Source: Cryptosporangium arvum DSM 44712 (GTDB lineage Bacteria; Actinomycetota; Actinomycetes; Mycobacteriales; Cryptosporangiaceae). From it: a stretch of 64,000 nucleotides of DNA. Shown here piece after piece: positions 13,912-54,427 of the stretch. Each line of letters opens with the position of its first letter. The stretch's first letter is position 1. Under the pieces are notes generated by a model. It was not told where the DNA came from, made no database searches, and was given only the letters and a program-made list of their open reading frames with translations. The translations under genes were made by a program, and so were the position numbers. Location: the NCBI RefSeq assembly GCF_000585375.1, contig NZ_KK073874.1, positions 3,038,001 through 3,102,000 of the forward strand, written 5' to 3'.

Positions 13912-13915
<4 letters not shown>
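13007..13915 (-). CDS. iolE: Sugar phosphate isomerase/epimerase, IolE-like (inosose dehydratase-type)
   Basis: 302-residue TIM-barrel protein of the AP-endonuclease-2 family. It starts MITIGSAPDSWGVWF, typical of IolE. It carries putative metal ligands in LQFHSHADSHIG (His), VNLCLDTGHVAYYGGD (Asp/His), GYLHLKQVD (His) and the C-terminal IVEQDMYP (Glu). IolE dehydrates scyllo-inosose to a trihydroxycyclohexanedione. Four-base overlaps link it to iolD upstream and iolG downstream. An IolH/IolI-type isomerase is the main alternative, because these families share the fold. Confidence 0.82.
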
Positions 13916-15767
<1,852 letters not shown>

Positions 15768-35749: not shown

Positions 35750-37267
35750 TCACGGGTGTGCCACCTTCTCCGCCCGTCGCGGTGGACCGGTCGCGTCGAC
35801 CGGAGGCGGAGAGCCCGCGGTCGTGGTGACCCGGTTGCGCCCGGACGTCTTGGACGCGTAGAGCAGCTCGTCCGCGAGAGCCAGGAGGTCGTCGACGGTC
35901 GTGGTGTCCTCCGGCATCGTGGCGACGCCGATCGAGACCGTCACCGTCGCCGACGTGGCCGGCCCCACCGGGATCGGCACGTCGGCGATCGTCCGGCGGA
36001 CGCGTTCGGCGACCTCCCGGGCGATCGGCGGGGTCGTGTTCGAGAGGAGGACGACGAACTCCTCGCCCCCGTAGCGGGCCAGCAGATCTCCGCCGCGCGT
36101 CGCGACGTACAGGCGCCGCGCGACCTCGCGCAGGACCCGGTCGCCGCCGTGGTGGCCGTGGGTGTCGTTCACCGACTTGAAGTGGTCGACGTCGATCAGC
36201 AGGACGCCCAGCCCGGCGCCGCGCAGCGCCCGCTCGCCCTCCATGACCAGGCTGTGCTGGAAGTAGCGCCGGGTGTGCAGCCCGGTCAGCCCGTCGGTGA
36301 TCGCGACCTCCCGCTGGGCCGCGACCAGACCGCCCATCCGGGCCAGCACGAGCAGGAAGAGCAGCGCGCAGGCGGTACAGACGAGCGGGATGTGCTGCGG
36401 CGCGCCCCGGAGGTACTGCACGAGCAGCGTCGCCGGGGCGAGCAGCGACGCGACCGCGAGCAGGGCCAGCCGGTACCGTCCCGCCTCCGCGACGACGGCC
36501 GGCGACGGTTCCTCCACCAGCCGGACGCTCGGATGCAACACCGAGGCCCCCAGCAGGATCGAGGCGACCAGCCAGGCCGTCTCCGGCCAGTAGCCGCCGA
36601 GCAGCTCCTCCCCGGCCAGGGACTCGACGCTCTGCAGGGTGTCGGCGGCCGTGAACGCGATCAGGGAGCCCGCCAGCAGCCACAGCGACGGCGGGTGCAC
36701 TCCCTTGCCGAGGACCAGGCGCGCGCCGATCGAGAGCAACAGCAGATCGCCGAACGGGAACGCGACGAGCGCGGCCCGGTCGACGACGCTGAGCGTGCTG
36801 TCCCCGGTCAGCGGGTAGATCAGGTAGACCCACGAGAGCAGGGCCGCCGAGACCGTGACGATGCCGGCGTCGAGGGCGGCCGCCCGGTCCATCGACGGGG
36901 TCCGGCGGCGGATCAGGAGCACCAGGCCGAGGGCCAGCAGCGGGTACTGCACGGCGAAGATCAGCGCGAGCGCGCCGAGGAACGCGGGTTTGGCGTCGCC
37001 GAACAGCGGCGGCAGGTACGTCGGCAGGCACCCCAGGAAGATCATGAACTGGCTGGCCGCGATCAGGGCCCAGGCCACTCGGGCCCCGGGGCGGTTCAGC
37101 CGGATGCCGAAGACGGCCGCGACGGCCCCGGCCAGCGTCAGCGCGATGTTGAGCTCGTCGTGCGGGAGCGTGGGGCCGCCGGAGAGCGGGTAGAGCCGGT
37201 ACCCGGCCACGCCCGCCGCCCCGCCGGCCAGGAAGGCGAGCCAGACGTTCTCCCGCCGGATCCTCAT
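35750..37267 (-). CDS. Membrane diguanylate cyclase (tandem copy 2)
   Basis: 505 residues. About ten helices (residues 8-310) are followed by a GGDEF domain starting ITDGLTGLHTRRYFQHSLVMEGERAL. The active site is RYGGEEF, with an RGGD inhibitory-site motif five residues upstream. It is the same length as the neighbouring gene and shares LLSWVYLIYPLTGD and FPFGDLLLLSIGARL with it, showing a tandem duplication. The ATG overlaps the neighbour's stop (ATGA). The signal sensed by the membrane part is unknown. Confidence 0.94.
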   Translation of the reverse strand: MRIRRENVWLAFLAGGAAGVAGYRLYPLSGGPTLPHDELNIALTLAGAVAAVFGIRLNRPGARVAWALIAASQFMIFLGCLPTYLPPLFGDAKPAFLGALALIFAVQYPLLALGLVLLIRRRTPSMDRAAALDAGIVTVSAALLSWVYLIYPLTGDSTLSVVDRAALVAFPFGDLLLLSIGARLVLGKGVHPPSLWLLAGSLIAFTAADTLQSVESLAGEELLGGYWPETAWLVASILLGASVLHPSVRLVEEPSPAVVAEAGRYRLALLAVASLLAPATLLVQYLRGAPQHIPLVCTACALLFLLVLARMGGLVAAQREVAITDGLTGLHTRRYFQHSLVMEGERALRGAGLGVLLIDVDHFKSVNDTHGHHGGDRVLREVARRLYVATRGGDLLARYGGEEFVVLLSNTTPPIAREVAERVRRTIADVPIPVGPATSATVTVSIGVATMPEDTTTVDDLLALADELLYASKTSGRNRVTTTAGSPPPVDATGPPRRAEKVAHP

Positions 37268-38781
37268 CGGTGCGCCGCCGTCGTGGTCGTCTCGTCGACG
37301 GCCGGAGCGGAGCCCGTGGGCGCGGCCCGGTTGACGGTCGAGGTGACCCGGTCGCGCCCGGTCTCCTTGGACGCGTAGAGCAGCTGGTCGGCCAGGAGCA
37401 CGAGGTCGTCGACGTTCGTGGCGTCCTCCGGCATCGTGGCGACGCCGATCGAGACCGTGATCGTCGTCGACGTCGTCGGGTTCACCGGCATCGGCGTCTC
37501 GCTGATCGCGAGGCGGACCCGTTCGGCGATCTCCCGGGCGATCGGCGGGACCGTGTTCGGCACCAGGACCGCGAACTCCTCGCCGCCGTAGCGGGCGACC
37601 AGGTCCCCGCCGCGCATCACGACGCGCAGCCGGGTCGCCACCTCGCAGAGCACTCGATCGCCGCCGTGGTGCCCGTAGGTGTCGTTTATCGCCTTGAAGT
37701 GGTCGATGTCGAGGAGGAGGACGGCGAGCCCGGCGCCGCGCAGGGCGCGCTCGCCCTCGACCGTGAGGCTGTGCTCGAAGTAGCGCCGGGTGTGCAACCC
37801 GGTCAGGCTGTCGGTGATCGCGACCTCGCGCTGGGTGGCGACCAGCCGCGCCATCCGCCCCAGCACGAGCAGGAACAGCAGTGCGCAGGTGGCGCACACC
37901 AGCGGGACGTGCAGCGACGCCCCGCGCAGGTACTGGACCAGCAGCGTCACCGGGGCGAGCAGCGACGCGACCGCGAGCAGGACCAGGCGGCGGGTGCCGG
38001 CGTCCGGGTCGGCGGTGGGGGAGACCTCCTCCACCGCACGCACGCTCGGGTGCAGCCCGGCCACTCCGAGCGCGACCGCGGCCAGCACCCAGAGCGTCTC
38101 CGGCCAGGTGCCGCCGATCAGCAGCATCCCGTTCAGCGCTTCGACGCTCTGCCCGGTGTCGCCGAGCGTGAGCAGCACCAGGTAGCCGGCGAGCAGCCAG
38201 AGCGCCGGGGGGCGCAGCCCGGCGCCGAGCATGAGCCGCGCGCCGACCGCGAGCAGCAGCAGGTCCCCGAGCGGGAACGCGGCGATCGCGACCTCGTCGA
38301 GCCGTGTGAGCGCCGGGTCTGCGGTGAGCGGGGAGATCAGGTAGATCCACGACAGCAGCGACGCCGACACCGTGAGGATCGCGGCGTCGATCAGGCTGGC
38401 GACGTCCCAGGACGGGGCACGCCGCCGGATCAGGAGCAGCAGACCGACCCCGGTCAACGGGTACTGGGCCACGTAGATGATGGTCAGGAGGCTGGGGAAG
38501 TCGGGCTTGTCGAAGCCCAGCAGTGGCCCCAGGTAGACCGGGACGCTGCCGGCGAACAGGGCCAGCTGCCCGGCGGCGAGCAGGCCCCAGGCGCCGATCG
38601 CCCGCGGCCGATGGATCCACATCCCGGCGCCGACCGCGACCGCTCCGGCCAGCACGAGCGTGAGGTACACCAGGCTGGTCGCGCCACCGACGGGAACCAG
38701 CCGGAACGTCACCACGCCGATCAGCCCGGCGGCCAGAAAGGCCAGCCAGGCCGGTGGACCCTTCCGCACCGTGGTGGCCAT
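37264..38781 (-). CDS. Membrane diguanylate cyclase (tandem copy 1)
   Basis: 505 residues, MATTVRKGPPAWLAFLAAG onward. Ten predicted helices and then a GGDEF domain (ITDSLTGLHTRRYFEHSLTVEGERAL) with RYGGEEF and RGGD. First gene of a same-strand group of two cyclases and one EAL protein; the 96 bp upstream separate it from the TetR gene. LLSWIYLISPLTAD matches the motif in the cyclase at 10.5 kb, so all three belong to one local paralogous set. Confidence 0.94.
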   Translation of the reverse strand: MATTVRKGPPAWLAFLAAGLIGVVTFRLVPVGGATSLVYLTLVLAGAVAVGAGMWIHRPRAIGAWGLLAAGQLALFAGSVPVYLGPLLGFDKPDFPSLLTIIYVAQYPLTGVGLLLLIRRRAPSWDVASLIDAAILTVSASLLSWIYLISPLTADPALTRLDEVAIAAFPLGDLLLLAVGARLMLGAGLRPPALWLLAGYLVLLTLGDTGQSVEALNGMLLIGGTWPETLWVLAAVALGVAGLHPSVRAVEEVSPTADPDAGTRRLVLLAVASLLAPVTLLVQYLRGASLHVPLVCATCALLFLLVLGRMARLVATQREVAITDSLTGLHTRRYFEHSLTVEGERALRGAGLAVLLLDIDHFKAINDTYGHHGGDRVLCEVATRLRVVMRGGDLVARYGGEEFAVLVPNTVPPIAREIAERVRLAISETPMPVNPTTSTTITVSIGVATMPEDATNVDDLVLLADQLLYASKETGRDRVTSTVNRAAPTGSAPAVDETTTTAAHR

Positions 38782-39522: not shown

Positions 39523-40992
39523 ATGTCCATGACAACGATGGTGACACCGCGGGCGGCCGGACGCCGGGAGTGGGCCGCGCTGGCCGTGGTGACGCTCGCG
39601 GTCGTCGTGCTCGCGATCGACGCCACCGTGCTGTCGCTGGCTGTGCCCGCGCTCACCGCGGACCTCGCGCCGTCCGCGACCGCACTGCTGTGGATCGGCG
39701 ACGCGTACTCGTTCGCGCTGGCCGGGCTCCTGGTGACGATGGGAACGCTGGCCGACCGGATCGGCCGCAAGCGGCTGCTGCTGATCGGCGCGACCGGGTT
39801 CGCGCTCGCATCGCTGCTCGCCGCGTTCGCGCCCGCCGCCGGGTGGCTGATCGCCGGCCGCGCGCTGCTCGGCGTCGCCGGGGCCACGCTCATGCCCTCG
39901 ACGTTGTCGATCATCCGTACGCTCTTCGCCGACGCCCGGCAGCGCACCACCGCGATCGCGGTGTGGTCGGCGGCGGCCGGTGGAGGTGCGGCGCTCGGCC
40001 CCGTCGTCGGCGGCGTGCTGCTCGACCACTTCTGGTGGGGCTCGGTGTTCCTGATCAACGTGCCGGTGATGGTGCTGCTGATCGGGTTCGGCGCGGTGCT
40101 GCTGCCGGAGTCGCGGGACCCGTCGCCGGGCCCGTTCGACCTCGGCGGCGCGCTGATGTCGCTGGTCGCGATCGTGGCGCTCGTCTACGCGGTGAAGCAC
40201 ACGGTGTCCGACGGGCTCTCCGCGGTCGCGCTGATCTCGGCCGGCGTCGGGCTCGCGGTCGGGTACGCGTTCGTGCGGCGCCAGCGGCGGTCGGCGTCAC
40301 CGTTGATCGACGTGCGGCTGTTCGCGCGGCCCGCGTTCGCCGGTGCGGTCGGAGCGAGCCTGCTCGCGGTGTTCGCGTTCAGCGGGCTGCTGTTCTTCTT
40401 CTCGCAGTACCTGCAGCTGGTGCGGGGCTACAGCCCGTCGGCGGCGGGGGTGCGTGAACTGCCGGCGACGGTCGCGTCGATCGCGGTCGTGGCGGTGGCG
40501 GGGTGGCTGGTCGTGCGGTGCGGGCGCGGCCGGGTGATCGGGGGCGGGCTGCTGCTCGCCGGGGCCGGGTTCGTCGGCCTCGCGCTGGCCGAGGGAGCCT
40601 CGCGTTACCTGTGGCTCGGGCTCGCGCTGGTGCTGGTGGGGCTCGGCGTCGGGCTCGCGTTCACGCTGACCACCGACGCGGTGCTCTCGGCGGTGCCGGC
40701 CGACCGGGCCGGGTCGGCGTCGGCGGTGGCCGAGACCGCGTACGAGCTGGGGGTCGCGCTCGGGATCGCGGTCCTCGGCAGCGCGCAGACCGTGCTGTAC
40801 CGCAACGCGTTACCGGCCGACGCGGGCGCGGCGGCGCGGGACTCGCTGGCGGCGGCGGCCGCGGCGGGCGAACCGCTGGCCGGGGCCCGGGAGGCGTTCG
40901 TCGCGGCCATGCAGACCACCTCGGTGATCGCGGCCGTCCTGCTGGCGGTAGCGGCCGCGATCGCCTGGCGCGTGATCCCGTCCGAACGCTAG
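39523..40992 (+). CDS. DHA2-family MFS exporter (14 helices), drug efflux type
   Basis: 489 residues. Helix 1 and its loop read VVLAIDATVLSLAVPALTADL, followed by the drug-efflux motif WIGDAYSFALAGLLVTMGTLADRIGRKRLLLIG and motif C-like WSAAAGGGAALGPVVGGVLL. These place it with EmrB/QacA/LfrA-type proton-driven exporters. ATG starts at 39523, 39529 and 39538 are possible and none has a strong ribosome-binding site, so the first is given. Divergent TetR and an intervening palindrome indicate ligand-induced expression. Confidence 0.93.
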   Translation: MSMTTMVTPRAAGRREWAALAVVTLAVVVLAIDATVLSLAVPALTADLAPSATALLWIGDAYSFALAGLLVTMGTLADRIGRKRLLLIGATGFALASLLAAFAPAAGWLIAGRALLGVAGATLMPSTLSIIRTLFADARQRTTAIAVWSAAAGGGAALGPVVGGVLLDHFWWGSVFLINVPVMVLLIGFGAVLLPESRDPSPGPFDLGGALMSLVAIVALVYAVKHTVSDGLSAVALISAGVGLAVGYAFVRRQRRSASPLIDVRLFARPAFAGAVGASLLAVFAFSGLLFFFSQYLQLVRGYSPSAAGVRELPATVASIAVVAVAGWLVVRCGRGRVIGGGLLLAGAGFVGLALAEGASRYLWLGLALVLVGLGVGLAFTLTTDAVLSAVPADRAGSASAVAETAYELGVALGIAVLGSAQTVLYRNALPADAGAAARDSLAAAAAAGEPLAGAREAFVAAMQTTSVIAAVLLAVAAAIAWRVIPSER

Positions 40993-41033: not shown

Positions 41034-42104
41034 TCAGGCGGCCGCGGTGGCCAGCTCGCGTCGTGAGTCGGAGGCGGCGGTACGGGCGGCCGGTTCGAGC
41101 GGGAGCGGTGCGGGGCCGGTGGGCGCGGCCTCGATCGCGAGCATCGCCCGGGGTGCGGCCGGCGCGACGGCCGGGCTCACCGGCGCGACCGCGGCCCGGC
41201 GGCGGACGACCAGGCGGTAACCGAGGACGGCGATCCCGGGCAGGGCCGCCACCAGCGCGAACAGCCCGTACACGACCGCGATCGTGAGCCCGGCCTGGGC
41301 CCCGAGCCCGGCCAGCCCGAACGCCCACGCGCAGAAGCCCTCACGGGGCCCCCAGCCGCCGACGCTCAGCGGCACCGCCATGACCAGCAGCGCCAGCACC
41401 ATCAGCGGCAGCAGCTGCCCGATCGGCGCGGTGGCCCCGGCCGCGCGCGCCGCCAGCACGAACGTCGCCAGGTGCGAGACCACGACCACGGCCGACGAGA
41501 TCCCGACCCAGATCCAGTTGCGCTTCGCGAGCAGCCCGCACCGCACGTCCCGGCCGACCGCGGCGGCCCGGCGCCGCAGCCCCGGGCGGGACGCGACGAC
41601 GGCGGTGAGCACGACGACGGCGACGAGGACACCCACGAGCAGCGACCGCGGCACCCGGACCCAGACGTAGTGCAGCAGCCACGGGTGCGCGAGCAGCACG
41701 GCCCCGCCGATGACGAACATCGCGACCTGGCCGGCGAACCGCTCCAGCACGACCGCGCGCACCCCGCGCCCCACGTCGCCGGTGTCGCGTCCGTTGCGCA
41801 CCGCGCGGTGGACGTCGCCGAGCAGCCCGCCGGGGAGCGTCGCGTTCAGGAACAGCGACTGGTAGTAGTCGGCGACCGCGCTGTGCAGCGGCATCCGGAT
41901 CCCCAGGCCGCGGGCGGCCAGCACCCAGCGCCAGGCGCTGGCCACGGTCGCGAGTAACCCGATGCCGAACGCGGCGAGCAGCGACCAGACGTTGATGACA
42001 CGCAACCCGTCCAGGAACGCGTTCGAGCCGAGGCGCCAGAGCAGGATGCCGATGATGGCGACCCCACCGAGCGTCCGGACCCAGGCCCAGATGCGTTGCT
42101 TCAT
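41034..42104 (-). CDS. Flippase-like integral membrane protein (UPF0104 / LPG-synthase-type membrane domain)
   Basis: 356 residues with about eight helices. VASAWRWVLAARGLGIRMPLHSAVADYYQSLFLNATLPGGLLGDVHRA and VVLERFAGQVAMF are typical of the AglD/MprF-N-terminal membrane family. Its members translocate or modify lipids; no aminoacyl-transferase domain is attached. The C-terminal 50 residues are Pro/Ala-rich and probably cytoplasmic. It is the last gene of a seven-gene operon and overlaps the methyltransferase stop by 4 bp. In that setting it could flip a lipid-linked product made by the upstream genes; this is inference. Confidence 0.85.
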   Translation of the reverse strand: MKQRIWAWVRTLGGVAIIGILLWRLGSNAFLDGLRVINVWSLLAAFGIGLLATVASAWRWVLAARGLGIRMPLHSAVADYYQSLFLNATLPGGLLGDVHRAVRNGRDTGDVGRGVRAVVLERFAGQVAMFVIGGAVLLAHPWLLHYVWVRVPRSLLVGVLVAVVVLTAVVASRPGLRRRAAAVGRDVRCGLLAKRNWIWVGISSAVVVVSHLATFVLAARAAGATAPIGQLLPLMVLALLVMAVPLSVGGWGPREGFCAWAFGLAGLGAQAGLTIAVVYGLFALVAALPGIAVLGYRLVVRRRAAVAPVSPAVAPAAPRAMLAIEAAPTGPAPLPLEPAARTAASDSRRELATAAA

Positions 42105-42982
42105 TCCGCTGCCCCAAGCATTGTCGTCGCCCCGTGCGGCAGGGCGAGCAGATCGGTGTGGTGGATGGTCACCCGGAGGTCGCCCGTGGCGAGGGCGTCG
42201 AGCCTCCTGGTCAGGTAGTCCTCGGCATCGTGGCCGCGCAGGGCGGCGGCGGCCGGAACCCAGCCGCGGAGCCATTCCGCGGTCAGGTCGGCGTGCGCCG
42301 CCCCGAGCCGCCACACGCTCGACCGCTGCTCGACCACCCAGCCGCGCCGGGTGAATGCGTCCGCAGCGGCGCCGCCCGCGTCGGGACCGAGCAGTTCCCG
42401 GCCCTCGACGTGGTGACGCAGGTGGTCGGCGAACCCGGCGGCGAGTTCCTCGTCGAGCGGATCGGCGGGGGAGAAGTCGACGGCGCCGGTGACCGAGAGC
42501 GTGATCAGCGCCGGGCACCCGGCCTCGACGCAGGTGGCCGCCAGTCGGTCGATCTCGTCGACGCTGAGCAGGTCCAGCAGCGCCGACGCGGTGATCAGCG
42601 ACGTCGAGCGAAGGTCACCGGGCGAGAGCTCGGTGAGATCGGCGTGCCGGGTCATCACGGTCACGCGGGAGGCGTCGGCCGCGGCCTCGGCGGCGTTGGC
42701 GGACGCGAACGCGAGCAGGTCGGCGTCGTGGTCCTGCAGTATCCAGCGCTGCGGGCCGTCGAGCTGCGGCGCGAGCCAGCGCTGCATCGAGCCGGTGCCG
42801 CAGCCGAGGTCCCGGATCAGGAGCGAGCCGCGGGTCGCGAGCGTCTCGGCCAGGTGACGGCGCAGCGGGACGAGCAGGTCGCGCGAGCGGGCCTCGGCGT
42901 CGGCCGGTTCACGCAGCTCCAGCCACGTCGGCGCATAGCGCGGTGCGTCCGTCAGTGTCACCCGTTCTCCGCTCATGTTCAC
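42101..42982 (-). CDS. Class I SAM-dependent methyltransferase
   Basis: 293 residues with a Rossmann SAM-binding fold: motif I LLIRDLGCGTGSMQRWLAP at about residues 55-72, then the acidic loop WILQDHDADLL and the post-II region LITASALLDLLS. Length and motifs fit a small-molecule methyltransferase; the substrate is unknown. The GTG at 42982 overlaps the stop of the CDP-alcohol transferase (GTGA); an ATG at 42976 is an alternative with better spacing from TAGG. Its own stop overlaps the start of the flippase-like gene. It is part of the 41-47 kb operon. Confidence 0.87.
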   Translation of the reverse strand: MNMSGERVTLTDAPRYAPTWLELREPADAEARSRDLLVPLRRHLAETLATRGSLLIRDLGCGTGSMQRWLAPQLDGPQRWILQDHDADLLAFASANAAEAAADASRVTVMTRHADLTELSPGDLRSTSLITASALLDLLSVDEIDRLAATCVEAGCPALITLSVTGAVDFSPADPLDEELAAGFADHLRHHVEGRELLGPDAGGAAADAFTRRGWVVEQRSSVWRLGAAHADLTAEWLRGWVPAAAALRGHDAEDYLTRRLDALATGDLRVTIHHTDLLALPHGATTMLGAAE

Positions 42983-43758
42983 TTACCTACTTCCACGTAC
43001 GGCTCGGAGACGGTACCGGTTCGAACCACACGCGTCACAGCCGTATGCCTGCGGTACAGGAAAAGGATGTCCCGGCCGAACGAGAACGTCAGTACGGCGA
43101 GCGACACACTGGCGATCGTCGTCATGACGGAGTCGGGTACCACTCCGGCCGCCGCGACGATCAGCACGATGCCCTGCACCGCGGCGATGACGCTGCGCGA
43201 CTGCCGGCGGGGCAGGTCACCGCGCAGCCAGGGGAAGGCCAGGCCGGCCGCCAGGTACAGGTAGCGGTAGGCGCCGATCGCGACGACGATCCAGAGGCCG
43301 AGCGCGTGGGCGACGTAGACGCTGAGCACCAGCGCGAGGATCGAGTCGACCTCACCGTCGAACCGGCCGCCCAGCTTCGTGGTGGTGCCGGTGCGGCGGG
43401 CCACCTGCCCGTCGATGCCGTCCATCAGCCAGGCGACGACGGCGAGCGTGACCAGGACGACCACCGGCGCGTCCCGGGTGGCCACCGAGTCCGCGACCAG
43501 CGCGGTCACGCCGCCGACGAGCGTGCACCGGGTGAGCGTCACCGCGTTGGCGGGCCCCAGCGACGCCGCCCCCGAACGGAGCAGCGCGCTGGTGAGCAGA
43601 GCCCAGGTGGTCACCGCGAACGTGATGCCGGCCAGCCATCCGGGGGTGCCGAGCCCTACCCCCGCGGCGAGACCACCGAGCACGGCGGTCTGCAGGAGCA
43701 CTCCCGCGGTGGCACCGCAGAGGGGACTCGCTGCGCTGACTCGAACATCTAACGTCAC
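42979..43758 (-). CDS. CDP-alcohol phosphatidyltransferase
   Basis: Integral membrane transferase that joins a CDP-activated alcohol to an acceptor hydroxyl in phospholipid-type synthesis. The family signature D-x2-DG-x2-AR-x8-G-x3-D-x3-D is complete (MDGIDGQVARRTG followed by GGRFDGEVDS), with about six helices around it. I prefer the GTG at 43758, giving 259 residues, because codon third positions upstream lose their G/C bias. A TTG at 43839 would give a 4-bp overlap with the HAD gene like other junctions here, so it stays possible. The acceptor and donor in this operon are unknown. Confidence 0.9.
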   Translation of the reverse strand: MTLDVRVSAASPLCGATAGVLLQTAVLGGLAAGVGLGTPGWLAGITFAVTTWALLTSALLRSGAASLGPANAVTLTRCTLVGGVTALVADSVATRDAPVVVLVTLAVVAWLMDGIDGQVARRTGTTTKLGGRFDGEVDSILALVLSVYVAHALGLWIVVAIGAYRYLYLAAGLAFPWLRGDLPRRQSRSVIAAVQGIVLIVAAAGVVPDSVMTTIASVSLAVLTFSFGRDILFLYRRHTAVTRVVRTGTVSEPYVEVGK

Positions 43759-43835
43759 TGATCCACCCGTTCCGGTCCGGTCACGACCCCGCGTCGCGCG
43801 CCAGATAGCACGGGCGGTTGCCACAGAAGGTTCAG

Positions 43836-44504
43836 TCAAACAAGCGACACGACGTGCCGGAGCCCGCGAGGGCCCGTCGCCGCGGGCCGGGGAAGCAGAA
43901 ACGCGTGCATTCCGACGGCGATCGCGCCCGAGTCGGTGAGCGGGTTGTCACCGACGAACAGGGTGCGTGCCGGGTCGACCTCGAGCGCGTCGCAGGCGGC
44001 CAGGAACACCGGGGTCGCGGGCTTGCACATGCCGTGCTGGAACGACATGACGACGGTGTCCACATAGGCCATGATGCCGAGCCGTTCCATCGCGGGACGG
44101 ATGTCGAAACCGGTGTCGCTCACGATGCCGATCTTCGTCCCGCGGTCGCGGAGCGCGCGCAGCGTCGGCACGGTGTCGGGGAACGCCTCCCAGGACTCGG
44201 CGGCCACCGTGCGGGCGTACAGCTTCTCCGAGAGGCCCTCGGCGAGCTGCTCGGCGCCCGCCGACCGGTACAGCGCGGTCCACACGTCGTGGTGCTTGTC
44301 CTCGGACAGGTCGCGGCCCTTGGCCATCTCCTCGGCCGTGCTGCTGCGGTCCAGGACGCGCTTCCAGACGTCGGCCACCTCGCCGGGGTCCAGCGGGGCC
44401 ATCCCGAGGTCGGCCGCCGCGCGGTGCAGCAGGGTCTCGCCGCTGCCGGCCAGGCGGATCAGGGTGTCGCCGGCGTCGAACAGGACTGCGTCGAACTCGC
44501 TCAC
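43836..44504 (-). CDS. HAD-superfamily hydrolase (phosphatase-like)
   Basis: 222-residue haloacid-dehalogenase-fold enzyme. Motif I is FDAGDTLI (nucleophile Asp), motif II GIVSDTGFD, motif III the Lys in CKPATPVF and motif IV FVGDNPLTDSGAI. The helical cap lies between motifs I and II. All catalytic residues are present, so phosphatase activity on a small metabolite is likely. The GTG start overlaps the glycosyltransferase stop by 4 bp. In the operon it might dephosphorylate a sugar or pterin phosphate; that is a guess. Confidence 0.9.
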   Translation of the reverse strand: MSEFDAVLFDAGDTLIRLAGSGETLLHRAAADLGMAPLDPGEVADVWKRVLDRSSTAEEMAKGRDLSEDKHHDVWTALYRSAGAEQLAEGLSEKLYARTVAAESWEAFPDTVPTLRALRDRGTKIGIVSDTGFDIRPAMERLGIMAYVDTVVMSFQHGMCKPATPVFLAACDALEVDPARTLFVGDNPLTDSGAIAVGMHAFLLPRPAATGPRGLRHVVSLV

Positions 44505-45697
44505 GTCCGCGTCTCCTCCACTACGGCCCGAATTTCCGTGAATAGCACGCGTGCCGTGTCGTCCCAGTTCGGAAAGGACTCCGAACGGGCCTTCGCGGCC
44601 GCGGCCATGGTGTGGCGTCGCTCGTCGTCCTCGGCGAGCGTGCGCAGGGCCGCGGCGAGCGCGGCGACGTCGCCGGGCGGCACCGCGAAGCCCTCGCGGC
44701 CGTGGCGGGCCAGGTGGGGAAGGTTCCCGGCGTCCCAGCCGACGACCGGCAGGCCCTCCGTCATCGCCTCGCCGTAGACCGTCCCGTACGGCTCGCGGAC
44801 GCTGGCCAGCGCGAACACGTCCGCGGCGCGGTAGAGGCCGACGACCTCGGCCGGGGTGACGAGGCCGTGGATCGTCACCCGGCCGGCGAGGTCGTCGCGG
44901 TCGAGGCGCCGGCGCACGCGCGCGGCGTAGCCGGGGTCGATGTCGGGGTCGCCGACCAGGTGCAGGGTCACCGCGTCGGCCGGGAGGGTCGCGACGGCCT
45001 CGAGCAGGTCGAGCAGGCCCTTGCGTTCGACCCAGTTGCCGACCGAGAGCACCGCGGTGCGCCGACCCTGCCGCAGGTCGGCGGCGGGAGCGACGGCGTC
45101 GTCGGCCGGGTTGCGCCCGGGTGCCACGACCGTCAGCAGGTCGGCGGGGAGGCCCGACGCGCGGAGGGTGTCGGCCAGGTCCTCGCTGGCGATCAGCAGC
45201 TTCGACGCGAAGCGGTACGCCCGCTGGTCGAGCAAGGCCTGGACCGTCCGCCGTACGCCCGTGTGGTCGATGCCCCCGGGCGGCTGGTGCAGCATCCCGA
45301 CGATCGGCGGTAGCCCACGCGCCCGCCACCGCCACCGCCCGCGACCTCCCGCGCCTCGAGCCGCGCCCGGAGTCGCGCCTTGAGCCGCGCCTTGAGCCGC
45401 GCCCGGGCCCGCGGTCGCCGGGCCCGCGGTCGCCGAGGCCCCGGCGGTCGGGGACGAGGCGGCGCGGCGGAGCCACGGGCCCAGGTAGGCGGCGGCGATG
45501 CTGTCGAGCAGGATCGCGTCGGGGGCGCGGGCCGCGAGGTCGGCGAGCAGGCCGCGGCCGGCGGCGACGGAGGCCGCGAACGAGCGCTCCGGCACCGACA
45601 CGAACTCCAGGAGCGCGTCGTGGGCGGCGGCGCGATCGGCGACGCGCCGGTGGTAGAGGTACCCACCGGTCATCGTCGCCGGATCACCCAGCGTCAA
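44501..45697 (-). CDS. GT4-family glycosyltransferase
   Basis: About 398 residues, GT-B fold. The C-terminal donor domain has VLSVGNWVERKGLLDLLEAV, IHGLVTPAEVVGLYRAADVFALAS and the EX7E segment REPYGTVYGEAMTEGLPVVGWDAGNLPHLA. A low-complexity Ala/Gly/Pro insert (about residues 77-118) separates the N-terminal half from PPIVGMLHQPPGG. The start is uncertain: the first ordinary start is TTG at 45697, yet the frame stays open upstream and reads RVALLTLGDP, the expected first beta strand, so a rare CTG start near 45712 is possible. The donor sugar and acceptor are unknown. It follows the pterin-synthase-like gene. Confidence 0.87.
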   Translation of the reverse strand: MTLGDPATMTGGYLYHRRVADRAAAHDALLEFVSVPERSFAASVAAGRGLLADLAARAPDAILLDSIAAAYLGPWLRRAASSPTAGASATAGPATAGPGAAQGAAQGATPGAARGAGGRGRWRWRARGLPPIVGMLHQPPGGIDHTGVRRTVQALLDQRAYRFASKLLIASEDLADTLRASGLPADLLTVVAPGRNPADDAVAPAADLRQGRRTAVLSVGNWVERKGLLDLLEAVATLPADAVTLHLVGDPDIDPGYAARVRRRLDRDDLAGRVTIHGLVTPAEVVGLYRAADVFALASVREPYGTVYGEAMTEGLPVVGWDAGNLPHLARHGREGFAVPPGDVAALAAALRTLAEDDERRHTMAAAAKARSESFPNWDDTARVLFTEIRAVVEETRT

Positions 45698-45732
45698 CAG
45701 CGCGACCCGCAGCGGACCGGCGTCGGGCGCGC

Positions 45733-46113
45733 TCAGGCGAGCACGCCCGAGTAGCCGCCGAACTCGGTCGCGTTCTCGTAGACGCGCACCGACAGCGTCG
45801 CGCCGGGCGTGCCGATCGCCGCGCCGATCCGGCCGTGCACCCAGTGCGCGAAGTCCTCGACGGTGACCGCTTCCTTGCCGATCTCCGGCGCGACGATCTC
45901 GTCCAGGTCGTTGTCCTGGAGCTGTTTCGTGAGGTCCTCGAGTGCGCCGACGAGCACGTCGAGATCGACGACCATGCCCTTCTCGTCGAGCTGCTCCCGG
46001 GAGACGACGAGCGCTAACCGGTAGTCGTGCGAGTGCTTCTCGCCCTCCGGGGGCGGCATGTCGGGCATGGTATGGAATGCGCGAACTCCGCGCTCGGTGC
46101 CTGCTTCGTACAT
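45733..46113 (-). CDS. 6-pyruvoyl-tetrahydropterin synthase / QueD-like protein
   Basis: 126-residue T-fold enzyme of the PTPS/6-carboxytetrahydropterin synthase family. Candidate zinc His residues are H14 (FHTMP) and H27/H29 (KHSHDYRL). The conserved MVVDLDVLVGALEDL and the C-terminal substrate Glu in VRVYENATEFGGY are present. The protein contains no Cys, so the usual catalytic Cys is absent and the reaction may differ from standard PTPS or QueD. AGGAG precedes the ATG at 46113. No queuosine genes are nearby; it sits between a dehydrogenase and a glycosyltransferase. Confidence 0.87.
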   Translation of the reverse strand: MYEAGTERGVRAFHTMPDMPPPEGEKHSHDYRLALVVSREQLDEKGMVVDLDVLVGALEDLTKQLQDNDLDEIVAPEIGKEAVTVEDFAHWVHGRIGAAIGTPGATLSVRVYENATEFGGYSGVLA

Positions 46114-46123
46114 GGCTTAACTC

Positions 46124-47089
46124 CTATCGGATGTAACGCAGAGCGGTGTGCAGGATGCCCGGATCGCCACGGTCGATCGCGGCGAACGCGTCGGCCGCGT
46201 CGGTGAACGCGAACTCGGTCGTGGCCAGCGACTTCAGCGGTAGCTCGGAGAGCAGGCCACGGGCGGTGACGCGCCGCCGGGCGTTCGTCCACCGCCCCTG
46301 GGCCGCGAACGGGATCGTCGACACCTGGCTGCTGCGGATCGTGAGCCGTCGCCGGTGGAAGTGCTCGCCGAGCGGCAGCGGTACCGGCTTGGTGCCGTAC
46401 CACGATCCCACCAGCGCCGTGCCCTCGTGCGCGAGCAGCGCCAGCCCGTCGGCCAGCGCACGCGGCGCGCCCGACGTCTCGATCAGCAGCGGCACCTCGC
46501 CGGGAGCCTCGTCCGGGCCGACCGCGTGGAGGCCGAGTTCGTGGGCCCTTTCCCGGCGCGTGGCCTCGGGTTCCACCGCGACGACCGAGGCGCCGGCTCG
46601 GTGCAGCAGCAACGACGTCAGCAGCCCGATCGCGCCCAGCCCGGTCACCACCACGGTGTCCTCGAGCACCGGACCGGCGTCGAGGGTGAGCTGCAGTGCG
46701 GTCTCCACCAGCGGGAACAGCGTCCCGATCCGCGGGTCGAGGTCATCGGGCAGCACCACGACGTCGTCCTCGCCGGCGACGAACCGGTCCTGGTGGGGGT
46801 GGAACGCGAACACGGTCCGGCCGGTGAGCGACCCGCTCTCGACGACGCCGACGCAGCTGTACCCGTACTGGAACGGGTAGTCGAAGCCACCGTCGGCGAG
46901 CGCGGAGAGCGTCGTGTCCCGCTCGGTGGAGGGGTTCAGCTCACCGCGGTAGGCGAGCAGCTCGGTGCCCGCGCTGATGCCGGACCAGACCGTGCGGACC
47001 AGCAGGTCGCCGGGGCCGGGCTCCGGGTCGTCGACGGCGCGGATCTCGATCGCGCGTGGGGCGGTGAACCAGAGGGCGTGCGTGGTCAT
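46124..47089 (-). CDS. MDR-family dehydrogenase resembling bacteriochlorophyllide/zinc-type alcohol dehydrogenase (BchC-like)
   Basis: 321 residues. The N-terminal GroES-like half has VRTVWSGISAGTELLAYRGELNPS and FQYGYSCVGVVESG. The NAD(P)-binding half has VVVTGLGAIGLLTSLLLHRAGASVVAVEP. The catalytic-zinc motif GHE of classical alcohol dehydrogenases is absent, and SGISAGTE replaces the usual CGTD, as in BchC-like proteins. It is the first gene of the operon, lying 10 bp before the pterin-synthase-like gene. GGAG lies 5 nt before its ATG. It may reduce or oxidise a side chain of the product; the substrate is not known. Confidence 0.86.
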   Translation of the reverse strand: MTTHALWFTAPRAIEIRAVDDPEPGPGDLLVRTVWSGISAGTELLAYRGELNPSTERDTTLSALADGGFDYPFQYGYSCVGVVESGSLTGRTVFAFHPHQDRFVAGEDDVVVLPDDLDPRIGTLFPLVETALQLTLDAGPVLEDTVVVTGLGAIGLLTSLLLHRAGASVVAVEPEATRRERAHELGLHAVGPDEAPGEVPLLIETSGAPRALADGLALLAHEGTALVGSWYGTKPVPLPLGEHFHRRRLTIRSSQVSTIPFAAQGRWTNARRRVTARGLLSELPLKSLATTEFAFTDAADAFAAIDRGDPGILHTALRYIR

Positions 47090-47153: not shown

Positions 47154-48320
47154 TCAGCTTTCCAGAGTGAGCTTCACCAAACGCAGGTCCCCGGTGTCGG
47201 CCTGGAAATACGTCACGTACTGCACCAAATCGTCGCGTTCGGCGTACTCGGGGTGACCGAAACCGGCGTAGTTGACGTCCGCACCCCGCGTCGTGAAGAG
47301 CGGGAAGTCCGGCGACCACGGCCCGGACGGCGACGCGCCGACCTGTGCCCGCATGACGTTGTCGCCGTACGGCAGGTACACGTTGAGCCACCCGTTCAGG
47401 CCGCGGACCGGGAAGACCGTGTTCCCCGCGGCGCCGGCCTCGACGGTGTCCACCGCCGCTCCGGTCTCGGCCGACCAGCGCTCCTGCCCGTCCGCCTCGC
47501 GTCCGGAGTAGAACCGCCACCGTGACCGGTCGCCGATCCGGTCCAGCGGCACCCGGGCCAGGTGGCAGCGTTCGGAGCACGCGCCGTAGACGTACGCGTC
47601 CCCGCCGATCGTCAGCGCCGCGGTGTTGTACGCGTCGGACGGTGGGAAGAACATGGTCGGGTCGGGGCCCTCGACGCTCAGCACCGGGTTCGACCGGGAC
47701 GCGTCGAGCCGGGTCACCCGGCGGGTACGCATGTCCAGGGCCGCGATCCCGGTCCCCAGTGGCCGGCCGTACGTCCCGGAGCACGGGGTGCCCTCGCCGC
47801 CATCGCGGCAGAGCTTCACGTAGAAGATCAGTACCCGGCCGCGACGCGGGTCGGCGATCACCGGGCCGGGCCAGAACGCGAACTTCGCGCCGCAGTAGAG
47901 GTCGGCCGCCGGGCTGCAGTCGCCGCCGTGCGCCAGTTCGAACGCCGACTCCGACGGCGTGTGCGTGATCACGGGTGTCGGCACCGAGCCGCTCAGGTCG
48001 ACGCCGTCGGCGGCGCGCCGGTCGGTCGTCGACGCCGCGCTGTTGGACAGGAACCCCTCCGGGTCGCGGAGCACGGTGTCCCCGAAGACCCACACCGAGC
48101 GGTCGCCGTAGGCGGTGCTCTGCCCGTTGTCCCGGGCGGTGACACGCCCGTCCTGGTCGATCGGCCCGAGTTCGACCGCGCGCACGGCCGGGACCGCGGG
48201 GAGGTTCCCGGACGGTGGTGACCGCTCCGGCCGCCGCAGCACGACTCCCACGACGATCAACGAGGCCCCGAGCGCCACCGCCACCGCTGCGGCCACCACT
48301 CGACGATCGGCGGCGCGCAT
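47154..48320 (-). CDS. Secreted or anchored DUF4185-like beta-propeller protein
   Basis: 388 residues. An N-terminal hydrophobic segment (about residues 8-28, RRVVAAAVAVALGASLIVVGVVL) acts as signal or anchor. The body has the sugar-hydrolase-like propeller motifs YGDRSVWVFGDTVLRDP and GPDPTMFFPPSDAYNTAAL found in DUF4185/DUF5005 proteins, which are related to five-bladed glycosidases. Cys pairs (CSPAADLYCG, CSERC) suggest disulphides outside the cell. Activity is not known. It is on the same strand as the operon downstream, 64 bp away, so it may or may not belong to it. The ATG at 48320 has no clear ribosome-binding site. Confidence 0.75.
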   Translation of the reverse strand: MRAADRRVVAAAVAVALGASLIVVGVVLRRPERSPPSGNLPAVPAVRAVELGPIDQDGRVTARDNGQSTAYGDRSVWVFGDTVLRDPEGFLSNSAASTTDRRAADGVDLSGSVPTPVITHTPSESAFELAHGGDCSPAADLYCGAKFAFWPGPVIADPRRGRVLIFYVKLCRDGGEGTPCSGTYGRPLGTGIAALDMRTRRVTRLDASRSNPVLSVEGPDPTMFFPPSDAYNTAALTIGGDAYVYGACSERCHLARVPLDRIGDRSRWRFYSGREADGQERWSAETGAAVDTVEAGAAGNTVFPVRGLNGWLNVYLPYGDNVMRAQVGASPSGPWSPDFPLFTTRGADVNYAGFGHPEYAERDDLVQYVTYFQADTGDLRLVKLTLES

Positions 48321-48330
48321 GGCGTCCAAA

Positions 48331-49476
48331 TTAGTGGTTCTTGGCGACCACTGTTCGCAGCAGGATCAACCCGAGCACCGAGCAGCAGGCAGCGGCCGCG
48401 AACGCGGCGCGGTAGCCGCCGAGCGCGGCGGCCTGGCCGACGACGAGGCCACCGAGCCCGGTCGCCACGTCGAAGAACATCGTGAACGTGGAGACGGCCG
48501 CGGGGCGCTCGGCCTCGCTCACCCGGCTGATCGTCAGCGCCATCAGCCCGGGGTACTGGAACGCGATGCCGGCGCCGAACGGCAGGATGCCGACGTAGAT
48601 CCAGAGCGGCGACGGCGCGGCCGCGATGATCACCAGCCCGATGACCACGCCGGTGGTGGCCAGCGTGCCGGCCCGGACCGCGCCGATCCGGTCGGGGAGA
48701 CCACCGGCGAAGATCCGCGCGGCCAGCACGACACCCGAGTACGCCAGGAACATCAACGCCGGGTTGGAGCCGCGCAGCTCGTCGACGTAGAGCGGGACGT
48801 AGGCGTTGAACGCGACCACGCCGATGATCCCCAGCGCCAGCACCGCTCCCGGCCAGAGCGCCGCGGAGTGGAAGCGCGGCACCTTCTCACCCGGGTCGCG
48901 GTGGTTCGTGACCAGCAGCATCGGCAGCGTTCCGGCGAGCTGGAGGACGCCGGCGAGCAGGAACGTCGGCCCGAAGCCGAACGTCTCGTAGACCGGCTGG
49001 CCGATCACCGGCCCCAGCCCGATGCCCAGGTAGGGCGCGACCGAGAAGTAGCTCGACGCGCGGGAGCGCTGCTCGGCCGGCGCGGTCGCCATCACCCGGG
49101 CGATGCACGCGACGAACATCACCGCCAGCGCGGCCCCGGTGAGCAGGCGGAGCGCGAGGAGCACCGCGAAGCTGTCGGCGAACGCGTGGCCCGCGGTGGC
49201 CACCGCTCCGGCCACGCCACCGAGCAGGACGAGCCGCTGGAAACCCCAGTTCTGGATGGCCGGGGCGGTGAACGGCCGGATCATCACCGCCGAGACCGCC
49301 ATCGAGCCGACGACGACGCCGATGGCCAGGTCACCACCGCCGAGATCCCGGACGAAGTACGGGAGCACCGGCAGCGTCATGCCGAGCGCGAGGAACACGC
49401 CCAACGCCGCGACCAGCAGCAGGCTGAACTCCTTGGTGATCAGCCGGGCTTCGGGCCGATCACGCAAGGTGGCCAT
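48331..49476 (-). CDS. MFS transporter
   Basis: 381-residue, 12-helix MFS permease, MATLRDRPEARLITKEFSLL onward. The loop 2-3 is weakly conserved (MIRPFTAPAIQNWGFQRLVLLGG), and the second half contains ARIFAGGLPDRIGAVRAG. It resembles sugar-efflux or drug-efflux MFS proteins of the YfcJ/AraJ type, but no substrate can be named. The ATG at 49476 is preceded by GGAGAGGG. It lies 10 bp upstream of the DUF4185-like gene, suggesting co-transcription. Confidence 0.9.
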   Translation of the reverse strand: MATLRDRPEARLITKEFSLLLVAALGVFLALGMTLPVLPYFVRDLGGGDLAIGVVVGSMAVSAVMIRPFTAPAIQNWGFQRLVLLGGVAGAVATAGHAFADSFAVLLALRLLTGAALAVMFVACIARVMATAPAEQRSRASSYFSVAPYLGIGLGPVIGQPVYETFGFGPTFLLAGVLQLAGTLPMLLVTNHRDPGEKVPRFHSAALWPGAVLALGIIGVVAFNAYVPLYVDELRGSNPALMFLAYSGVVLAARIFAGGLPDRIGAVRAGTLATTGVVIGLVIIAAAPSPLWIYVGILPFGAGIAFQYPGLMALTISRVSEAERPAAVSTFTMFFDVATGLGGLVVGQAAALGGYRAAFAAAACCSVLGLILLRTVVAKNH

Positions 49477-52200: not shown

Positions 52201-53517
52201 TCAGGCGGGGGCGGGGATCTGCGTCGGGGAGGGGTGCGCGGTGCGGCCGAGGTCCGCGGTGGGCACGTGCGCGGTCTCCCGGGCGGTGGCGGTCGCCACG
52301 GCGGAGATCACGCAGAGCACGGCCAGCATCACGGCCACCGGGAGCCAGCCGCTGCGCCCGTCACCGGACACGGCCGCCCCGATCGTCGGGGCGAACCCGC
52401 CGATCGCGAACCCGATCTGCGTCCCGATCGCCATCCCCGACAACCGCACCCTGGTCGTGAACATCTCCCCGTAGAACGCGGGCCAGGTCGAGTTCGGCGC
52501 GCTGTAGACGACCCCCGACAGCAGGATGCCGATCGCGAAGATCAGCACCCAGTTGCCGTGGCCGATCGCCGACAGGTACGCGAACATCAGCGCCGCCGAG
52601 CCAAGCGTGCCCCCGATCATCACCGGCTTGCGCCCGATCCGGTCGGCCAGCGACGCCCACAGCGGGATCGCCCCCAGCGCGACCACGTTGGCCAGCACCC
52701 CCACCCAGAGCAGCGTCGAGCGTTCGAGCCCGGCCGTGTCGGTACCGAACGACAGCGCGTACACCCCGAAGATCGTGCTCACCGACGCGACCATCGCCAC
52801 CAGGATCACCCGCAGCACCGACGCCCAGTGGTCCCGGAACAGGATCGCCAGCGGCATCTTCGCGCTGTCCTCCTGCACGAACGCCGGCGTCTCCTCCATC
52901 CGGCGCCGGATCAGGTACCCGACCAGCATCACCAGCACGCTCAGCAGGAACGGGATCCGCCAGCCCCAGCTGAGCAGCGCCGACTCCGGCAACGCGGCGA
53001 CCGGCAGGAACGCCGCGGTCGCGAGGATCTGCCCCATCTGGGTGCCGTTGAGCGTGAAGCTGGTGAAGAACCCGCGGCGGCCCTCCGGCGCGTGTTCCAG
53101 CGTCATCGAGTTCGCGCTGGCCTGCTCGCCGGCCGCGGAGAAGCCCTGCGCGAGCCGCAGCACCACGAGCAGCGTCGGGGCGAGGACCCCCACCTGCGCG
53201 TACGTCGGCAGGCAGCCGACCAGGAACGTCGAGACGCCCATCAGCATCAGCGTGAACACCAGCACCCGCTTGCGTCCGAACTTGTCGCCGATGTGCCCGA
53301 GGATGAACGCGCCGATCGGCCGCGCGGCGTAGCCGACTCCGAACGTGGCCAGGGCGAGCAGCGTGCCGGTCGCGGGGTCGGAGTCGGGGAAGAACACCTT
53401 GTTGAAGACGAGGGCGGCGGCGGTGCCGTAGATGAAGAAGTCGTAGTACTCGAGCGCGCTGCCGATCCAGGCCGCTAACGCTGCTTTGCGCGGTTGCGCG
53501 ATGGGGGTTTCGGACAC
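52201..53517 (-). CDS. MHS-family MFS transporter, probable shikimate/quinate (ShiA-like) symporter
   Basis: 438 residues, 12 helices. Metabolite:H+ symporter hallmarks are WIGSALEYYDFFIYGTAAALVF in helix 1, RPIGAFILGHIGDKFGRKRVLV in loop 2-3 and RLAQGFSAAGEQASANSMTLEHAP. Family members carry shikimate, alpha-ketoglutarate, citrate or proline. Adjacent shikimate-degrading genes make shikimate or quinate the best guess. I chose the GTG at 53517 because GGGAG lies 6 nt upstream. A palindrome at 53574 and a same-strand TetR gene lie upstream. Confidence 0.9.
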   Translation of the reverse strand: MSETPIAQPRKAALAAWIGSALEYYDFFIYGTAAALVFNKVFFPDSDPATGTLLALATFGVGYAARPIGAFILGHIGDKFGRKRVLVFTLMLMGVSTFLVGCLPTYAQVGVLAPTLLVVLRLAQGFSAAGEQASANSMTLEHAPEGRRGFFTSFTLNGTQMGQILATAAFLPVAALPESALLSWGWRIPFLLSVLVMLVGYLIRRRMEETPAFVQEDSAKMPLAILFRDHWASVLRVILVAMVASVSTIFGVYALSFGTDTAGLERSTLLWVGVLANVVALGAIPLWASLADRIGRKPVMIGGTLGSAALMFAYLSAIGHGNWVLIFAIGILLSGVVYSAPNSTWPAFYGEMFTTRVRLSGMAIGTQIGFAIGGFAPTIGAAVSGDGRSGWLPVAVMLAVLCVISAVATATARETAHVPTADLGRTAHPSPTQIPAPA

Positions 53518-53573
53518 GAGGGGCTCCCTGGTGGTGTGCGTCGGTGCAGACACAGCGAGGGGTCGCGCTAATG

Positions 53574-53585
53574 AACCGTACGGTT
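53574..53585. promoter_or_regulatory. Palindromic operator before the MHS transporter
   Basis: AACCGTACGGTT is a perfect 12-bp dyad 57 bp upstream of the transporter start, in the 147-bp gap downstream of the TetR gene. It is a plausible site for that TetR protein. Confidence 0.55.
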
Positions 53586-53664
53586 AGGTACCAGAGAGTG
53601 AGTTAGCCCCGGGTCGACTGTCAAGGGGTGGGTGCGATCTCCGGGGCCGACACCCCGGCGCGGG

Positions 53665-54330: not shown

Positions 54331-54427
54331 GATCCGACCTTAAGCCCTTCGGTCACGGGTACCTCTTCCCCTGGGTGGCATCCTGGGCTACAACTAACTA
54401 TCGAGTACATTAAGTCGGAGGAGAGCC

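Follow-up and report, generated by a model that had tools for sequence, protein, structure and literature searches.

A seven-gene operon of Cryptosporangium arvum belongs to an uncharacterised biosynthetic gene cluster of bacteria and haloarchaea

Proteins of the PTPS superfamily are sorted by active-site motifs, among them CxxxHGH and ExxHGH (PMC5041015, PMC5445326). In 2017, PF00925 and PF01872 were noted as gene neighbours of one of their groups, PTPS-IV (PMC5445326), for which a role in F420 synthesis has been stated as unpublished (PMC5041015). We describe a PTPS-like protein of Cryptosporangium arvum DSM 44712 that is encoded in a seven-gene operon together with a dehydrogenase and enzymes of glycoside and lipid chemistry. 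The stretch analysed (the window, 64,000 nucleotides; NZ_KK073874.1, positions 3,038,001 to 3,102,000) is part of a genome assembled as a single contig of 9,195,993 bases, and the operon forms one run on its minus strand, from 47089 to 41034. This operon belongs to an uncharacterised biosynthetic cluster that spans two domains, bacteria and haloarchaea, and the window carries a form without two GTP-opening enzymes, GTP cyclohydrolase II (GCHII) and RibD_C. Our preferred reading, to which we give a probability of about 0.42, is that the operon is the local form of a widespread pathway to a GTP-derived, pterin-like head group, which would be glycosylated, methylated, coupled to a phospholipid and placed on the outer face of the membrane. 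Taken separately, a GTP-derived glycosylated compound is a very probable product of the cluster; for a lipid-linked product we see even odds.

A gene cluster shared by bacteria and haloarchaea

From its first gene onward, the operon consists of the following:

46124-47089, minus strand: BchC-like dehydrogenase of the MDR superfamily, 321 aa (PF00107, 38.5 bits)
45733-46113, minus strand: PTPS-like tunnel-fold protein, 126 aa (PF01242, 57.1 bits)
44501-45736, minus strand: GT4 glycosyltransferase, start uncertain (PF00534, 96 bits)
43836-44504, minus strand: HAD phosphatase with the nucleophile motif FDAGDT (PF00702, 69.5 bits)
42979-43839, minus strand: CDP-alcohol phosphotransferase, membrane protein, TTG start (PF01066, 45 bits)
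42101-42982, minus strand: SAM-dependent methyltransferase with DLGCGTG (PF13649, 35 bits)
41034-42104, minus strand: LPG_synthase_TM (UPF0104-like) membrane protein, presumed flippase (PF03706, 112 bits)

A tblastn search of 48 short loci placed the dehydrogenase, PTPS and glycosyltransferase genes together in distant Actinomycetota. The PTPS-like protein as a single query overlooked most members, with matches in 14 of 394 genomes of the class, compared with 54 of 296 for a profile (A2) at E<=1e-8 and 43 at E<=2e-20; these counts include the source genome, and the weaker profile matches include other PTPS types. In total, 146 loci were scored: 40 fetched by the PTPS-like protein, 80 by the dehydrogenase (the best 80 of 397 relatives in a scan of genome contigs with the dehydrogenase alignment), 20 by the methyltransferase, and six stretches of the source genome. 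Since the gene caller missed creatininase genes inside clusters, we scored six-frame open reading frames with cluster-built profiles. The dehydrogenase and PTPS genes lie within 4 kb of each other at 112 of the 146 loci, and removal of seven duplicate contigs left 105 distinct loci, whose phylum labels were assigned by hand and whose partners were counted within 11 kb of the PTPS gene.

The core of these 105 loci, a dehydrogenase and a divergent PTPS-like protein encoded on one strand in every case and usually accompanied by the GT4 glycosyltransferase (92 loci), occurs in Actinomycetota, Pseudomonadota, Chloroflexota, Desulfobacterota, Verrucomicrobiota and haloarchaea. Further partners are RibD_C (79), GCHII (66), the methyltransferase or its divergent form (46), the CDP-alcohol phosphotransferase (43), LPG_synthase_TM (39), a sulfatase-like protein (21) and a creatininase-family protein (11); a histidine phosphatase (12) and the HAD phosphatase (7) never occur at the same locus. 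Dehydrogenase, PTPS, glycosyltransferase, methyltransferase, phosphotransferase and LPG_synthase_TM genes are all present at 33 of the 105 loci, and such loci are found in each of the five bacterial phyla named. Pfam searches on representatives confirmed a GCHII-RibD_C fusion (L054), RibD_C alone together with FolB (L058), creatininase with GCHII (L066), the CDP-alcohol phosphotransferase (L171, L188, L191, L213), LPG_synthase_TM (L188), sulfatase-like proteins (L143, L203) and YceI (L188). The three haloarchaeal loci combine dehydrogenase, PTPS and methyltransferase genes, with the phosphotransferase in one and the glycosyltransferase in one; GCHII, RibD_C and LPG_synthase_TM are absent near all three. 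Another haloarchaeal locus, L213, has the dehydrogenase and the phosphotransferase, no PTPS gene was found near them, and it stands outside the 105.

The first-pass annotation of the window, made from its letters alone, had let its operon proposal stand or fall with co-occurrence in other genomes. The families recur across phyla, and the glycosyltransferase, phosphotransferase, LPG_synthase_TM, methyltransferase and HAD families are found at none of 22 control loci; the finding holds and, as a cluster spanning two domains, exceeds that annotation in extent. The controls are loci without the dehydrogenase, picked after the fact and therefore zero for it by construction; 15 carry a PTPS gene, and their GCHII (2), RibD_C (1) and creatininase (2) cases are source-genome stretches fetched for carrying those genes. 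A second control of 25 loci without the dehydrogenase (glycosyltransferase 2, phosphotransferase 1, LPG_synthase_TM 2, methyltransferase 2) was set aside, as it contains pieces of the cluster, e.g., L259 and L270. The methyltransferase as bait had matches in 49 of 394 genomes of the class, the source genome included (E<=1e-8), and the 20 loci it fetched contain PTPS (19), glycosyltransferase (19), dehydrogenase (18), GCHII (17), phosphotransferase (16) and LPG_synthase_TM (16) genes. At the one locus without PTPS, L259 of genome G437, the dehydrogenase, PTPS and glycosyltransferase genes lie on another contig, L062. Distances of the dehydrogenase and PTPS genes are correlated over 92 loci (r=0.91), those of the glycosyltransferase with either of the two less closely (0.57 and 0.55); none of 500 permutations matched these values, to which shared species history also contributes. 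The gene set and its conservation are well supported by genomics, as is the coupling of GCHII type and creatininase described below.

These counts also bear on another account, in which the genes form a common type of glycophospholipid operon and those for PTPS and the dehydrogenase are carried along as passengers. The GT4 glycosyltransferase, the CDP-alcohol phosphotransferase and LPG_synthase_TM could alone suffice for such a product. However, PTPS is the commonest partner among the 80 dehydrogenase-fetched loci (69, by gene calls, with glycosyltransferase 58, RibD_C 58 and GCHII 45) and the lipid genes are optional there (phosphotransferase 24, LPG_synthase_TM 17), and the methyltransferase bait retrieves PTPS almost without fail, so that we find this account hardly credible.

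Within the genus, the PTPS-like protein is found at 83-85 percent identity in three congeners (61 genomes searched, the source genome included). The whole operon is present at two of the congener loci (L063 and L065) and, at the third (L064), up to the HAD gene, where the contig ends. We rejected a restriction of the seven-gene set to the genus, as at a Virgisporangium locus (L140) the seven families are all present and GCHII-RibD_C is found with them; among the loci examined, the exact content and order of the seven genes occur only within the genus.

In the window itself, the earlier description of seven same-strand genes with short gaps and several 4-bp overlaps is borne out. The dehydrogenase and PTPS genes are 10 bp apart, and 4-bp overlaps join the PTPS and glycosyltransferase genes (if the latter starts at CTG 45736; TTG 45697 and ATG 45673 are the other candidates), the glycosyltransferase and HAD genes, the HAD and phosphotransferase genes (if the latter starts with TTG), the phosphotransferase and methyltransferase genes, and the methyltransferase and flippase-like genes. 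Depending on the starts, gaps range from 10 to ~77 bp, the latter with the in-frame GTG 43758 as start of the phosphotransferase gene; GTG 43701, the choice of the gene caller, would leave a longer gap. The family names first given stand for all seven genes at the Pfam level, where every match listed is above cut-off, but BchC, QueD and TIGR00374 need softening: against NCBIfam, the dehydrogenase reaches 84 bits with the BchC model TIGR01202 (cut-off 291), the PTPS-like protein 30.6 bits with the QueD model (cut-off 89.25), and the flippase-like protein, which passes PF03706, 26.8 bits with TIGR00374 (cut-off 43.2). The dehydrogenase has an SxxSxGTE motif and 39 invariant columns across 15 sequences, the window's included, and the CDP-alcohol motif DxxDGxxARx8GxxxDxxxD is complete in the window protein and in 42 of 43 cluster relatives.

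Two genes lie upstream on the same strand, and the transcription unit may reach into them:

47154-48329, minus strand: DUF4185 protein, directly upstream, possible operon extension (PF13810, 54 bits)
48331-49476, minus strand: MFS gene, upstream of the DUF4185 gene

Both are kept in the congeners, and the DUF4185 gene has matches at L063-L065 only among 224 loci (tblastn, E<=1e-40). Beyond the 3' end of the operon lies an MFS gene in convergent orientation (39538-40992, family judged by eye). Farther along, two adjoining genes with a 4-bp overlap (35750-37267 and 37264-38781) encode membrane proteins of 505 aa each that resemble one another and whose C-termini are, by eye, GGDEF-like; the pair looks like a tandem duplication. 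On the other side of the operon, a trio of MFS transporter, TetR regulator and shikimate-dehydrogenase-like genes (52201-55417, families by eye) recurs next to the cluster at the Streptomyces-type locus L255 (16893-19901) with 67, 64 and 53 percent identity, the sole match outside the genus among the 224 loci at the same threshold.

Opening of GTP and the proposed pathway

As the source of a pterin precursor, folate synthesis had been suggested in the first-pass annotation, since no GTP cyclohydrolase gene lies nearby. This is probably wrong, as GCHII and RibD_C belong to most of the relatives' clusters (66 and 79 of 105) and point to an opening of GTP of the riboflavin type; in the source genome itself, where FolE is present within 1 kb of FolB outside the operon, a folate source could still apply. 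The tyrosine position of GCHII, read in an EGRGIGLxxKxxAYxLQ-like stretch, is Tyr at 53 loci and Met, His or Leu at 12, and could not be read at one. Of the 12 non-tyrosine loci, 11 have a creatininase-family gene no more than 15 kb from the PTPS gene, and of the 53 tyrosine loci none has one; at the twelfth, L267, such a gene lies ~11 kb from the methyltransferase gene, outside the fetched stretch. The Streptomyces coelicolor enzyme SCO6655, with Met at this position, reportedly stops at the formylamino intermediate. The creatininase-family protein BrbF deformylates this type of intermediate to the diamino pyrimidine (PMC9478397). Because the presence of creatininase tracks non-tyrosine GCHII, the coupling suggests two equivalent ways of opening GTP, with GCHII as a working part of the cluster. 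Together with the presence of GCHII and RibD_C in the relatives' clusters, it indicates that the pathway probably starts with conversion of GTP to a ribitylamino-pyrimidine. Apparent GCHII-RibD_C fusions with further domains (over-long open reading frames at L145, L148 and L163) were rejected; their dehydrogenase lies on the opposite strand, and we take them as antisense artefacts of the gene caller.

In the pathway that we propose, GCHII, with or without a creatininase-family deformylase, would convert GTP into 2,5-diamino-6-ribosylamino-4(3H)-pyrimidinone 5'-phosphate, and RibD_C would reduce the ribosyl to a ribityl chain, removing the aldehyde state of C1'. The dehydrogenase would then oxidise a side-chain hydroxyl, most simply C2', to yield the ketone that GTP cyclohydrolase I generates through an Amadori rearrangement; ring closure to dihydroneopterin phosphate would then not require that enzyme. 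The PTPS-like protein, in which the likely pterin-binding glutamate is kept, the zinc ligands are usually kept and the cysteine is absent, could close or tailor the pterin ring or its side chain. An HAD or histidine phosphatase would take off the phosphate, GT4 would attach a sugar, the methyltransferase would methylate, the CDP-alcohol phosphotransferase would join the product to a phosphatidyl group, and the LPG_synthase_TM protein, a presumed lipid translocator, would flip it. We infer all substrates, the order of the steps, the C2' oxidation, the role of the PTPS-like protein, lipid attachment and flipping. The order of steps matches, without proving it, the colinear GCHII-RibD_C-DH-PTPS-GT arrangement of proteobacterial relatives (DH, dehydrogenase; GT, glycosyltransferase; e.g., L183, L210, L212, L216), from which it is drawn. 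If the route were shared by bacteria and haloarchaea, bypassing GTP cyclohydrolase I before glycosylation and fixation to a phospholipid, its products would be surface-exposed membrane lipids of a new class, active in redox and light reactions; we regard this wider proposal as unlikely.

The product might instead be no pterin at all. GCHII and RibD_C yield a pyrimidine precursor of the flavin and F420 type, which could lead through the ribitylamino-pyrimidine to a deazaflavin or another heterocycle, and the unpublished statement in PMC5041015 ties PTPS-IV to F420. We hold this to be improbable, as no F420 enzyme appears among the Pfam-identified neighbours, a result limited by some recurrent families being unidentified and by no search having been aimed at F420 genes. 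We know of no GT4 or CDP-alcohol phosphotransferase step in F420 synthesis.

The glycosylated, phospholipid-linked molecule for the outer membrane face that the first-pass annotation had put forward fits if it is taken to be GTP-derived, with its attachment to a lipid as a putative step. The core might instead make a soluble pterin glycoside, as in cyanobacteria and Chlorobium, with the phosphotransferase and LPG_synthase_TM serving a separate, co-regulated envelope lipid. Pteridine glycosyltransferases are known (PMC5683033, PMC13259868), and at 60 of the 105 loci (31 of the 66 with long flanks) neither lipid gene lies within 11 kb, which suggests that lipid attachment may be dispensable for the core. 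On the other hand, the two lipid genes are strongly paired (both at 37 loci, only the phosphotransferase at 6, only LPG_synthase_TM at 2) and stand beside the core in five bacterial phyla, and with the 33 six-family loci this makes chance co-regulation hard to hold. The soluble product is therefore unlikely, although a serious competitor.

The loci without lipid genes are one of several observations that weigh against our preferred reading. The window cluster has neither GCHII nor RibD_C, and the first two steps of the pathway would have to come from genes elsewhere in the genome, where we found no GCHII-RibD_C fusion. The closest pieces there are the GCHII part of RibBA (C1:2586440; 56 percent) and a stand-alone, Tyr-type GCHII (C1:2757773; 47 percent), and among 16 RibD_C-domain matches the best has 40 percent identity to the cluster type over 97 residues. 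Two families account for all 12 loci with non-tyrosine GCHII, whose coupling to creatininase may represent one or two evolutionary events; more generally, related genomes are not independent. Finally, 19 loci, Streptomyces-type ones among them, read HGA in the PTPS-like protein, and because this drops a zinc ligand, PTPS chemistry may differ between clades.

Several side observations concern these partners. The window itself contains one of the genome's 16 RibD_C/DHFR-like matches (58794-59333), with 38.9 bits one of the weaker. In several Actinomycetota (L149, L157, L165, L168, L171, L177, L259, L269), the CDP-alcohol phosphotransferase is fused to a sulfatase-like domain, a possible processing enzyme of the outer face; in the L171 fusion (11982-14393, 803 aa) this domain is below the Pfam cut-off (22.3 vs 25 bits), and the separate sulfatase-like proteins of L143 (26.3 bits) and L203 (27.4 bits) narrowly exceed it. 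Several clusters of Pseudomonadota and one of Desulfobacterota (L186, L188, L200, L209, L214, L217) include a gene of the YceI type, a lipid-binding family, which would suit a lipid product. In Geodermatophilaceae-like clusters and some others (L143, Pfam-checked; L147, L148, L149, L151, L152, L153, L157), the core has FkbM-type methyltransferase genes next to it, which perhaps substitute for the window-type enzyme.

The PTPS-like protein

The window protein, the only PF01242 match of its genome, belongs to the PTPS/COG0720 superfamily by its domain, its tunnel fold and its three zinc histidines, H14, H27 and H29. In the stretch E-G-E-K-H-S-H, Glu23 lies at position -4 from HxH, with Gly at -3 and Glu at -2, and thus occupies the distance from HxH at which QueD has its catalytic Cys. 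Across the 105 loci, site -4 is Glu in 67, Ala in 37 and a gap in one, and never Cys; H14 and H27 are each kept in 103, H29 in 85 (Ala in 19) and E113 in 104, L184 being gapped at most sites. The first label of the protein, PTPS/QueD-like, does not survive this comparison: by motif it is neither QueD nor PTPS, as its stretch contains no Cys and differs from CxxxHGH of PTPS-I/QueD, from CxxxxxHGH of PTPS-II (biopterin) and from ExxHGH of PTPS-III. It also reads PPPEGE where PTPS-IV has its signature FGPAQ, which is present at L066 and L255, and PF00925 and PF01872 are absent from its operon and found in 66 and 79 of the 105 relatives. The protein looks like a sister of PTPS-IV without FGPAQ.

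Structure comparison agrees with the superfamily assignment. An AlphaFold monomer model (pLDDT 96.4) matches QueD and SCO6650 chains with TMq 0.73-0.85 in Foldseek, QueD ranking first (2.9e-8) and SCO6650 15th (2.7e-7), yet with the highest TMq, 0.85. The sequence of the window protein alone gives weak PDB matches (best 0.012), with SCO6650 not among them at E<=1; when 12 window-type PTPS proteins are combined in a profile, SCO6650 (3d7j) becomes the top match (2.8e-9), with human PTPS (2.1e-7) and QueD (4.3e-7) behind it. Aligned with the QueD-like 2oba, the Asp-His pair, which we take to be catalytic, reads Gln66-Asp67 in the window protein; we likewise assume E113 to be the pterin anchor.

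With a glutamate in place of the catalytic cysteine, as in PTPS-III, the protein might replace FolB in folate synthesis, the rest of the operon being devoted to a lipid. The position of this glutamate, at -4 from HxH, is not that of ExxHGH (motif from PMC5041015), and the genome has a FolB of its own beside FolE. Moreover, the dehydrogenase accompanies the PTPS gene at 105 of 105 loci, which were selected for that, and the distances of the two genes correlate, all of which makes a FolB replacement very improbable.

Comparison with known systems

Pterin glycoside synthesis in cyanobacteria and Chlorobium resembles the cluster in combining a PTPS-family step, a reductase and a glycosyltransferase. 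That route relies on GTP cyclohydrolase I together with sepiapterin reductase, and we know of no CDP-alcohol phosphotransferase or flippase in it. Among the matches listed in our literature search, in which subscription journals are sparsely covered, no description of the whole gene set (GCHII/RibD_C with the dehydrogenase, GT4, phosphotransferase, methyltransferase and LPG_synthase_TM) was found. The earlier statement that no such pathway is described agrees with this for the set as a whole; a part of it was already recorded in 2017 (PMC5445326).

That part is the PTPS-IV neighbourhood (COG0720/IPR007115; PMC5445326, PMC5041015), which likewise places a PTPS-family protein beside PF00925 and PF01872; PF00925 is the GTP cyclohydrolase II family, which the PTPS-IV paper names GTP cyclohydrolase I/FolE2. 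In contrast to our cluster, the accessible passages of these papers do not mention the dehydrogenase, GT4, phosphotransferase, LPG_synthase_TM or methyltransferase as partners, and the window differs further in having neither FGPAQ nor these two neighbours. The split opening of GTP by ArfB and BrbF (PMC9478397) shares with the cluster a formamidase of the creatininase family, which acts once the ring of GTP has been opened; that route feeds riboflavin, whereas here the gene adjoins GCHII in a separate cluster.

The comparison extends to the SCO6650 (PDB 3d7j)-SCO6655 region of S. coelicolor, whose type is represented by L255: this locus encodes a near-identical SCO6650 (E 2.2e-81) inside a full cluster with the order dehydrogenase, PTPS, glycosyltransferase, methyltransferase, LPG_synthase_TM, creatininase, GCHII, and we found no HAD gene in it. 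SCO6655 expression opposes the predicted riboflavin flux (PMC2853524). SCO6652, the methyltransferase by count along the gene order (as are all SCO numbers here other than SCO6650 and SCO6655), is among the most induced unknown genes of the aerial and spore stages, with log2 changes of 0.8 (24 h), 4.3 (aerial, 48 h) and 4.1 (spore, 72 h) relative to first mycelium (PMC3610822, Table 3), i.e., ~17- to 20-fold at 48 and 72 h. This induction hints at a role of the S. coelicolor cluster in the envelope of aerial hyphae or spores. The predicted product would be a new pterin or pyrimidine glycolipid, in organisms that range over Streptomyces-type actinomycetes, Methylomonas and haloarchaea, and the presence of the cluster in tractable Streptomyces makes the question of its identity directly testable. 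The PTPS-like protein of this region differs from that of the window: Ala occupies the site of the Cys, HGA stands in place of HxH, and GCHII is kept in its cluster; a function for the cluster would at the same time be one for the crystallised orphan SCO6650 and for the PTPS-IV group.

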